Source: Nitrosarchaeum sp.
GTDB taxonomy: Archaea; Thermoproteota; Nitrososphaeria; Nitrososphaerales; Nitrosopumilaceae
Length of the DNA stretch: 33,765 nucleotides
Assembly: GCA_016844465.1 (NCBI GenBank)
Contig: JAERMO010000005.1
Coordinates: 1-33,765, forward strand
Direction of reading: 5' to 3'
Under the pieces are notes generated by a model that was not told where the DNA came from, ran no database searches, and saw only the letters and a list, made by a program, of their open reading frames with translations. The translations under genes were made by a program, and so were the position numbers. This document shows positions 29,599 through 32,847 of the stretch, piece after piece; position 1 is the first letter of the stretch; each line of letters begins with the position of its first letter.

Positions 29599-29802
29599 AT
29601 GGACCATCGTAAATTATCAAATATTGCAAAAACACTGGAGATAGTGAAAACAGATATGATCTATGCCATACAAATGATAGATGATGAAAAAAGACATCCG
29701 GTTATAATGCAACAAATTTCACAAATTCATTCTAAATTAATCCGCGTAGAGCAAATGATACTAGAAGATTTTACCGAAAATGATTTACTCAGGATCAGGT
29801 AA
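29599..29802 (+). CDS. Hypothetical protein
   Basis: 67-aa helical ORF MDHRKLSNIAKTLEIVKTDMIYAIQMIDDEKRHPVIMQQISQIHSKLIRVEQMI... Confidence 0.5.
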   Translation: MDHRKLSNIAKTLEIVKTDMIYAIQMIDDEKRHPVIMQQISQIHSKLIRVEQMILEDFTENDLLRIR

Positions 29803-30135
29803 AAGATTGTTTTCAAAGATACTTGTTGCAATTGATGGTTCAGAATCGGCAAAAAAAGCATTTGCAACATCGATTTACCTTGCGTCGATATCCAGATGTA
29901 GAATTGATGTATGGAAGAATACAAAAAAGTTGCTTTAGAAAAAAATATTCATCCAGAATTCATTTTAGAAATTGGAAACCCTGCTAATATGATTACAGAA
30001 GTTGTTAATTCTAAAGATTATGATCTAGTTGTGCTTGGAACCCGCGGTATGAGTCCAGTTAAGGAATTATTTCTGGGTAGTGTATCTATGAAAGTTATAC
30101 ATCATGCAAAATGTCCTGTCCTGGTAGTTCGATGA
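29780..30135 (+). pseudogene. Universal stress protein (UspA) remnant, internal deletion plus frameshift
   Basis: N-part 29780-29938 LFSKILVAIDGSESAKKAFATSIYLA; C-part 29911-30135 GNPANMITEVVNSKDYDLVVLGTRGMSPVKELFLGSVSMKVIHHAKCPVLVVR in another frame; the usual ~30-40 residue linker is absent. Confidence 0.75.
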
Positions 30136-30437
30136 CATAATTATTAGTAAATGCTACAATCAAATATTTTTCTAATCTATGCTAAGTATTTGATGTACCT
30201 TCTATTTGGGAATGGGATCATGATTCATCAGAAATTACAAGAATAACTATTGGTTATCATTATATTCCGAGTTGTTTTGGCAAATTTCTCATGACGTGAA
30301 ATTCTGCATATGTGATATTTGTTATAAAACAGTGTTAATCAACATATATTTGATTAAATTAATTATTATCAAATGAATTTTAATAAAAATAACAGTTTTA
30401 CTTAAATAATTTTAAGTTATTCCTATGTAGGCATATT

Positions 30438-30677
30438 ATGGCAGTGGCATATGTTATGATTAATTGTGATCTAGGGAAAGAGGAAATAGTAATTGGAAAT
30501 TTAAAGCGATTAAGTTGTGTCAAAGAAGTCCATGGGACTTTTGGGGTATATGACATATTTGCTAAGGTAGAAGACTCTGAAATGGAAAGGCTTAGACAAA
30601 CCATTACTCAGAGTATTCGAAGAACTGATTTTATTAGATCTACTATTACTCTTATGGGAATAGAGGGACAAAATTAG
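30438..30677 (+). CDS. Stand-alone Lrp/AsnC RAM-domain protein
   Basis: AVAYVMINCDLGKEEIVIGNLKRLSCVKEVHGTFGVYDIFAKVE...RSTITLMGIEGQN. Confidence 0.88.
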   Translation: MAVAYVMINCDLGKEEIVIGNLKRLSCVKEVHGTFGVYDIFAKVEDSEMERLRQTITQSIRRTDFIRSTITLMGIEGQN

Positions 30678-30783
30678 GAATCAGATAAATGTCACTCAAA
30701 TTTATCTTGAAAAAAAATGATGACAAGTATACGGATTGTTCTCAATGCAACAATCCTTATTGCACTGTAGTTGTAAGTGTCCT
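30661..30783. repeat. Inverted duplication, arm 1 (inverse copy at 32633-32756)
   Basis: tagagggacaaaattaggaatcagataaatgtcactcaaatttatc..tgaaaaaaaatgatgacaagtatacggattgttctcaatgcaacaa... matches reverse complement of arm 2 with four substitutions and one 1-nt indel. Confidence 0.9.
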
Positions 30784-30820
30784 AAATACGGTAAAAGAAA
30801 GAATTGTGGATATGAATTAA
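30689..30820 (+). pseudogene. Frameshifted copy of Cys-rich microprotein (intact paralogue at 32573-32728 -)
   Basis: MSLKFILKKNDDKYTDCSQCNN then frameshift; restoring one C gives SLLHCSCKCPKYGKRKNCGYEL. Confidence 0.75.
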
Positions 30821-30856
30821 GATCAGTCAAATGGGGGAGTTTGGATACTAGGGGCA

Positions 30857-31224
30857 ATGGTAACCATGGAATCTGAAAAATATCATAAAATTTATCAAGA
30901 AATACAAAATCTTGATCCAAAAATCAGATTTGTGACAATTATAGATTATCAAGGAAGATTGTTGTTTGGGGACAGAAAGAAGGAATAACAAATTATTTAA
31001 AACCAGACTTTCAAAAAGAATCACTCAGACATGCAATGGATGCATGGAAATTACGCGACAAATTCACAGATTTTATTGGTAAAGGAAAATATGCCCTTGT
31101 CGTATATGAAAAAATCAAAAGAATCACTATTCCATTAGAATCAGACAAGATTATCTATCTAACAACTGAACCAGAGGTTGATCATGACCGCCTAATTAAA
31201 AACATCATGAAAATATTAGAATAG
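30857..31224 (+). pseudogene. DUF6659-like thaumarchaeal protein, frameshifted
   Basis: KIYQEIQNLDPKIRFVTIIDYQGRLLFGDRKKE* (stop 30986-30988), then another frame: GITNYLKPDFQKESLRHAMDAWKLRDKFTDFIGKGKYALVVYEKIKRITIPLESDKIIYLTTEPEVDHDRLIKNIMKILE; consistent with a 1-nt loss. Confidence 0.65.
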
Positions 31225-31302
31225 AGTATTTAGACACACACAGGAGTCAAACATCCAGAATTCATTAAAAAATTTATAAATTTAAACAAATTTCACACAT
31301 GA

Positions 31303-31452
31303 TTATTTTTCGATATTTGGTATGTGTTCCTTGCAATAACATTTCAAGTCAGTACATTCTCTCATTTCATGAGTGTACTCATCAAGAGGTACCTTTTTTC
31401 TTTCACAGAAACACACATCTGCTGGTTCGTAGCACTTTATACAATAGCTCAT
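31303..31452 (-). CDS. 49-aa Cys-rich microprotein
   Basis: Manual ORF MSYCIKCYEPADVCFCERKKVPLDEYTHEMRECTDLKCYCKEHIPNIEK. Confidence 0.65.
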   Translation of the reverse strand: MSYCIKCYEPADVCFCERKKVPLDEYTHEMRECTDLKCYCKEHIPNIEK

Positions 31453-31588
31453 GAATACTATAATGTATTATACAATAATAAAGATTATTAGTTGATATAT
31501 GTAAATATATTGGAATATACAATTTATAATTAAACAAATTTTAATAACTAGCAACATATCTTTAATAATGTTTCAAGTATGCTTCTAA

Positions 31589-31840
31589 GTGGCATCTATT
31601 ATGGAGGTAGCATATGTTTTGATTAATTGTGAATTAGGAAAAGAAGAAACAGTAATTGAAAATCTAAAGCATCTAGATTCTGTCAAGGAAGTTCATGGAA
31701 CGTTTGGAGCATATGATATAATCGCAAAGGTAGAGCACGCCGAAAAAGAGAAACTCCGAGAAGTTATTATTTGGAGTATTCGAAAAATGGAAAACATCAG
31801 ATCTACTCTCACTCTTATGGGAATAGAAGGGCAAAACTAG
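31589..31840 (+). CDS. Stand-alone Lrp/AsnC RAM-domain protein (close paralogue of 30438-30677)
   Basis: EVAYVLINCELGKEETVIENLKHLDSVKEVHGTFGAYDIIAKVE...RSTLTLMGIEGQN; 56 of 79 aligned residues identical by eye. ATG at 31601 is the likely start. Confidence 0.88.
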   Translation: MASIMEVAYVLINCELGKEETVIENLKHLDSVKEVHGTFGAYDIIAKVEHAEKEKLREVIIWSIRKMENIRSTLTLMGIEGQN

Positions 31841-31847
31841 TAAGAAT

Positions 31848-32378
31848 ATGGCAAAAGCTTATGTTCTTATTGTTAATGAATCAGGAACTGAAGATTCTGT
31901 CATATCAAATCTTAATACTATTGAAACTGTAAAAGAGGCACATGGTACATTTGGTTCATACGATATTCTAACAAAACTTGAATCAAATGACGAACAAAAA
32001 ATTCAAAAGGACATCTCTAATAAAATTAGAAAAATTCAAAACATTCGCTCGACACTAACATTATTAGTTAATGAAAAAGAAAATTTTAGAAAAACAAATA
32101 AAAGTGAAAAGGAGATTTTAGAAAAATATCTGGCACAAGCTTTTGTCATAATTCATTGTAATAGATCACAAGAATCTAATGTGTTACAAAATTTAAAAGA
32201 CATTCCTGAAGTAATCGAAGCTGATATTTTGGTTGGTTCTTATGAAATAATTTGTAAAATTGTAGCTCCGACATATAATGAAATTTCAGATGTGGTTAGT
32301 AAAAAAATTCGTAAACTTGGAAATATCAAGTCCACAATTACCTTAAATGTAGTTGAAAAACAAGGTTTTAGTAAATAA
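31848..32378 (+). CDS. Tandem double RAM-domain (Lrp/AsnC ligand-binding) protein without HTH
   Basis: Two RAM units: AKAYVLIVNESGTEDSVISNL...TFGSYDILTKLE and AQAFVIIHCNRSQESNVLQNLKDIPEVIEADILVGSYEIICKI. Confidence 0.88.
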   Translation: MAKAYVLIVNESGTEDSVISNLNTIETVKEAHGTFGSYDILTKLESNDEQKIQKDISNKIRKIQNIRSTLTLLVNEKENFRKTNKSEKEILEKYLAQAFVIIHCNRSQESNVLQNLKDIPEVIEADILVGSYEIICKIVAPTYNEISDVVSKKIRKLGNIKSTITLNVVEKQGFSK

Positions 32379-32408
32379 TTTCATCTGGTACAGATTATGT
32401 CGTAGAAT

Positions 32409-32567
32409 TCAGTGATGAATCAAATAAGGCATTTTATCCTTAGTGTCGGGAATAGGGTTTGAACACTGTCCACATTTTGGACGAATTATTTCGGCATCAA
32501 AATCTACTTCGCCTATTGGTTTTTCACAAATCATACATCTAACTGTTTTAGTATCATAAATATTCAA
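32409..32567 (-). CDS. 52-aa zinc-ribbon-like microprotein (TTG start)
   Basis: Manual ORF MNIYDTKTVRCMICEKPIGEVDFDAEIIRPKCGQCSNPIPDTKDKMPYLIHH. Confidence 0.6.
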   Translation of the reverse strand: MNIYDTKTVRCMICEKPIGEVDFDAEIIRPKCGQCSNPIPDTKDKMPYLIHH

Positions 32568-32572
32568 TTTTG

Positions 32573-32728
32573 TTATCCTCCAGTAACTGCATCAAACAAT
32601 ACACATTCACAATCATCACGTTCTCCACAGTAAGGACACTTGCAATGACAGTGCAATAAGGAGTTGTTGCATTGAGAACAATCCGTATACTTGTCATCAT
32701 TTTTTTTCATGATAAATTTGAGTGACAT
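32573..32728 (-). CDS. 51-aa Cys-rich microprotein (45 aa from internal Met)
   Basis: Manual ORF MSLKFIMKKNDDKYTDCSQCNNSLLHCHCKCPYCGERDDCECVLFDAVTGG. Confidence 0.65.
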   Translation of the reverse strand: MSLKFIMKKNDDKYTDCSQCNNSLLHCHCKCPYCGERDDCECVLFDAVTGG

Positions 32729-32756
32729 TTATCTGATTCCTAATTTTGTCCCTCTA
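32633..32756. repeat. Inverted duplication, arm 2 (inverse copy at 30661-30783)
   Basis: See arm 1. Confidence 0.9.
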
Positions 32757-32847
32757 CCCAGCCCTTACATGAAACGCAAATTAGCATACCGTCTTCATCC
32801 TCATAACTTTTTGAATCTGAAGGACATTTACATTTTAGAACTTCCAT
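32740..32847 (-). CDS. 35-aa zinc-ribbon-like microprotein
   Basis: Manual ORF MEVLKCKCPSDSKSYEDEDGMLICVSCKGWVEGQN; CxC...CxxC. Confidence 0.6.
   Translation of the reverse strand: MEVLKCKCPSDSKSYEDEDGMLICVSCKGWVEGQN

Follow-up and report, generated by a model that had tools for sequence, protein, structure and literature searches.

The window—a stretch of 33,765 nucleotides—is one whole contig among the 169 of a 1.56-Mb, 77% complete genome assembly of a Nitrosarchaeum-like ammonia-oxidizing archaeon. Toward its end, it carries three genes for proteins with a Lrp/AsnC ligand-binding (RAM) domain, interspersed with genes for small Cys-rich and zinc-ribbon proteins. RAM1 (30438–30677, + strand) is a stand-alone RAM domain protein that ends in GIEGQN and matches Pfam PF01037 with E = 5e-8. 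RAM2 (31589–31840, +) is a single-RAM protein with the same GIEGQN ending and shows 83–90% identity and conserved synteny in genus relatives. Directly 3′ of it lies RAM3 (31848–32378, +), which features two RAM domains, matched by PF01037 in two stretches with E = 8e-22. The PF01037 bit scores are 33.2 for RAM1 and 77.4 for RAM3 at a curated cut-off of 25. RAM2 is 71% identical to RAM1, with 76% identity at the nucleotide level; the nearest relative of RAM1 in the tree is RAM2, and the end branch has a length of 0.49 for RAM1 versus 0.043 for RAM2. RAM1 is thus a copy of RAM2 that arose inside the genus, and its branch length corresponds to an evolution roughly ten times faster. Of the 31 best-matching RAM homologs, 29 have the tail GI-x-GQ-x, where the DNA often reads ggaatagagggacaaaa or near it, and GIEGQN is a conserved ending of RAM proteins.

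Between RAM1 and RAM2 lie a microprotein pseudogene described below, a DUF6659-like gene, and a small Cys-rich gene. The DUF6659-like gene (30857–31224, +) is frameshifted into the ORFs 30857–30988 and 31036–31224; with both pieces joined by X, the Pfam match has E = 7e-6, just below the curated cut-off. The genome also has intact full-length homologs of this broken gene, which lie on a separate contig (L089). The Cys-rich protein (31303–31452, −) is without a match in Pfam or NCBIfam and adjoins RAM2 in relatives too, at 76–89% identity within the genus. On the far side of RAM3, three small genes follow on the − strand: zr (32409–32567), a zinc-ribbon-like protein located 3′ of mA and syntenic in nearly all genus relatives; mA itself (32573–32728), an intact Cys-rich microprotein of 51 amino acids with orthologs in genus and family relatives; and znrib (32740–32847), a small zinc-ribbon protein that shares its final codons, EGQN*, with the RAM tail. 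A search of open-access papers returned no description of this locus. Scans for promoter and terminator signals stayed at chance level, their consensus being bacterial and ill-suited to archaea.

Inverted arms of the locus

The stretch 30661–30783 (arm 1) is the reverse complement of 32633–32756 (arm 2) with four substitutions and one indel; a base-by-base count bears out what the initial annotation had read by eye. In the alignment up to 30783, the substitutions fall at 30707, 30769, 30770, and 30774, and the indel is an extra C in arm 2. A self-alignment recovers the match far beyond chance (within-genome BLAST E = 6.6e-52), and the repeat search of the window divides it into 93 nt of 99% complementarity (30661–30753/32664–32756) and, past a 1-nt shift, 65 nt of 74% (30754–30818/32598–32662). 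BLAST finds two copies only of the arm block in the assembly. The near-identical part of arm 1 (30661–30770, +; 107/110 identical to arm 2) comprises the RAM1 tail, an 11-nt spacer, and the mA-like 5′ end of a microprotein gene. Its counterpart in arm 2 (32648–32756, −) comprises the end of znrib (VEGQN*), the spacer, and the 5′ part of mA. Both reported endings are present: GIEGQN* on the RAM protein at 30438–30677 (+) and WVEGQN* on the zinc ribbon at 32740–32847 (−).

The microprotein gene of arm 2 is termed mA and that of arm 1 mC, and HMMs were built from the mA and mC genes of relatives. The mA protein features one CPYCG motif, the remaining Cys residues being arranged as CxxC(H/N) and CxCxC; mC of relatives reads MREDFAEYTKC...CPKCGKRE.... 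Neither has a match in Pfam or NCBIfam, and the AlphaFold2 model of mA, at a mean pLDDT of 49, is too poor to use. By size and motif only, both can be likened to the C(P)XCG zinc-finger microproteins of haloarchaea (PMC11241148, PMC6562870): they are archaeal, about 50 amino acids long, and carry CPYCG or CPKCG with several further Cys. Any relationship to the haloarchaeal proteins, and any binding of zinc or another metal, would be putative. That the microprotein came from a virus or mobile element was considered and rejected, as viral contigs gave no relative. A third, family-wide member (EEFAICVECGNSIEKCVCVCPYCGERDKCECALFDAATGG) lies at C160:3738–3866 of genome G000 (L088), with homologs, e.g., at L018–L031; a conserved stretch, tttatacgatttctttcta, stands upstream of it.

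The N parts of both arms are mA-like at about 21 versus 8 bits (20.8 for mA and 8.3 for mC in arm 1). The C parts diverge: that of arm 2 scores 64.9 bits with mA and 35.1 with mC, that of arm 1 37.9 bits with mC and 18.1 with mA. Arm 1 thus holds a hybrid, frameshifted pseudogene (30689–30852, +, the 3′ end being approximate) with an mA-like 5′ end and an mC-like 3′ end, the latter in another frame after the loss of 1 nt. The initial annotation had taken the arms for two copies of one microprotein gene, intact in arm 2 and frameshifted in arm 1; the intact copy stands, but arm 1 is more than a plain frameshifted copy since its 3′ half comes from a different paralog family. In G005, the genome with RAM2 nearest in the tree, mC (L085:2390–2550) is likewise a pseudogene, interrupted by in-frame stops; decay of mC has thus occurred in several lineages, and its loss looks tolerated. 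The idea that the arm forms a hairpin or another structured element was also dropped, the folding z-score being an unremarkable −1.4.

Organization in relatives

In the genus layout, znrib-mA-zr and RAM2-RAM3 face each other; many species also have a Cys-rich protein and mC beside RAM2, followed by the universal-stress-protein gene usp. For each arm, the flanking gene order on either side agrees with the window (usp…cys31303-RAM2 and zr-mA-znrib-g33066). In the relatives, mA and mC flank this same cys/RAM2/RAM3/zinc-ribbon cassette and are only 45–68% identical. G008 and G003 share the opposed arrangement of the window; in G015, G006, G011, G004, and G017, the two genes point in the same direction. 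The orientation of mC alone varies between species of the genus (L033, L034 versus L035–L039), whereas its neighbors keep theirs. The inverted pair is therefore not tied to near-identity. In G005, the closest relative, the contig ends before arm 2, leaving the immediate ancestral state out of view.

A different arrangement occurs in G028, which belongs to another genus: at C12:9689–9813 (L110), a RAM gene ending in GIEGQS is directly followed by mA. This operon-like pair was seen once among 251 family genomes, at the sensitivity used, and its junction is 70% identical to arm 1 across the whole stretch from RAM tail to mA. Orthology of RAM1-mC to this RAM-mA operon was considered and rejected because RAM1 groups with RAM2 of its own genus.

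Probable gene conversion between old paralogs

Along the arms of the window, identity amounts to 0.97 upstream of the microprotein gene, 0.98 in its core, and 0.61 in its 3′ part, whereas mA and mC of ten genus relatives show 0.45–0.54, 0.52–0.65, and 0.55–0.68, respectively. The tract edge is hence a sharp drop to a value inside the 3′ range of the relatives. Mismatches cluster beyond the tract end with a Fisher p of 1.6e-7, at a cut point picked after the alignment was seen. Taken together with this drop, C parts of different families and N parts of the same family point to a short homogenized tract laid over old paralogs. The arms are thus very probably old, diverged paralogs—mC on the + strand and mA on the − strand, about 1.9 kb apart—that have been partly homogenized in recent time by one or a few events of ectopic gene conversion or inverted-repeat template switching. 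The initial annotation had offered gene conversion as one of its readings, and the relatives favor it: both paralogs occur there with the divergence usual for them, and homogenization of the pair in the window is confined to the 5′ ~110 bp.

Among the alternatives, a third source—for example, a RAM-mA operon since lost or unassembled—that gave the block to each arm separately is unlikely. The G028 pair, 70% identical to arm 1 at the junction, and the 77% completeness of the genome leave room for such a donor; the assembly, however, shows two copies only, and RAM1 arose by duplication of RAM2 inside its genus and is not orthologous to the RAM gene of G028.

The initial annotation had also proposed a recent inverted duplication, in which a piece of about 124 bp is copied into a new place unrelated to existing copies. 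About 110 bp of high identity with a junction inside coding 3′ ends would suit this, but beyond the block the homology continues at the level usual for paralogs (61–74%), and relatives hold both paralogs at matching places, so the target already had a homologous gene. In G008 and G003, moreover, both genes and their opposed orientation exist without near-identity. A fresh duplication is accordingly quite improbable.

An artefact of assembly or binning would be conceivable in a fragmented metagenome-assembled genome of 169 contigs and 77% completeness in which arm 2 lies about 1 kb from the contig end. It is nevertheless very unlikely: gene order on both sides of both arms matches relatives; a misjoin at the inverted repeat would invert the interior, which is not inverted; and several differences between the arms show that one sequence was not used twice. 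That the arms recombine to flip the ~1.9 kb with RAM2 and RAM3 between them, as was initially suggested, is hardly credible—recombination between inverted arms of this length (~110 bp) is conceivable, and mC alone changes orientation among relatives, yet RAM2 keeps the orientation of the window wherever its flanks are visible (10 relatives when judged against g33066, six against usp), the arms are homogenized in this genome only, and a recombinase is absent among the genes identified at 28–33.7 kb.

Mechanism and direction of transfer

Under gene conversion between the paralogs, recombination without crossover and inverted-repeat template switching would each leave the footprint seen. Non-crossover homologous recombination has been demonstrated experimentally for the duplicated tuf genes of Salmonella (PMC5485169). 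The likeness lies in a non-reciprocal copying between paralogs that results in a short near-identical tract in diverged copies; unlike the tuf genes, the copies in the window are inverted, 1.9 kb apart, and far more diverged, the tract extends beyond the paralogs to include part of an upstream gene unrelated to them, and we infer conversion from the footprint. Template switching between non-identical inverted repeats (PMC8604942) likewise homogenizes arms and leaves clustered codon changes in coding DNA. The cases analyzed there have arms of 7–16 bp and spacers of up to 70 bp, in contrast to the spacer of ~1.9 kb and the tract of ~110 bp in the window, where inversion of the spacer is not seen. 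Because of this long spacer, copying of the recombination type seems favored over fold-back switching.

The znrib tail carries a mark of direction. Its GQN end is found in the window only (one of 12), the 11 homologs ending otherwise; since GIEGQN is conserved in RAM proteins, the EGQN of znrib is most likely RAM-derived, which would mean that the tract was copied out of arm 1 and into arm 2 at its left end. In genome G034, the zinc ribbon also ends in WVEG plus two residues, so a shorter native microhomology at the znrib end is possible. The core of arm 2 is unusually far from mA orthologs at a normal 3′ part—its core minus tail value of −0.15, based on 42 and 63 nt, is the lowest of 13 mA genes—and this atypical core fits import. 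The main tract probably moved from arm 1 to arm 2 as well. The signals of direction are nonetheless mixed: the tail marks arm 1 as donor, while the coding half, being mA-like, would rather have come from arm 2 or from a RAM-mA unit since lost. Two or more steps, or else a patchy exchange, are therefore needed.

A course of events consistent with these signals would include the copying of, at minimum, the left tract end from arm 1, i.e., the RAM1 tail, into arm 2, giving the zinc ribbon its RAM-type EGQN* ending. The exchange may have broken on one side at the short shared motif TAGAG (G-W-V-E in znrib, G-I-E in RAM) and on the other within conserved Cys codons. The mA-like coding half of arm 1 must ultimately stem from an mA gene, either supplied in an earlier step or by patchy exchange, and arm 1 would have decayed afterward by frameshift. 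The repeat itself needs no function and can be understood as a scar of recombination between paralogs.

The window case is thereby a further instance of a known process, ectopic gene conversion, and ordinary genome wear. It is a clean case in which inverted paralogs that are short and strongly diverged underwent gene conversion in a Nitrosarchaeum-like archaeon, the tract having transferred the codons next to the stop of one gene to another gene unrelated to it. It also calls for caution: inverted repeats that are almost identical within one window can mark scars on old paralogs and not mobile or invertible elements. A broader reading is highly improbable, namely that inverted Cys-rich microprotein pairs in the genus are sites of repeated recombination, swapping RAM and zinc-ribbon ends, flipping mC, and creating new neighbor combinations.

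Upstream of RAM1, the usp gene (29780–30143, +) is broken as well: compared with G005 (L085), it has lost 90 bp and gained 2 nt, resulting in a net frameshift.
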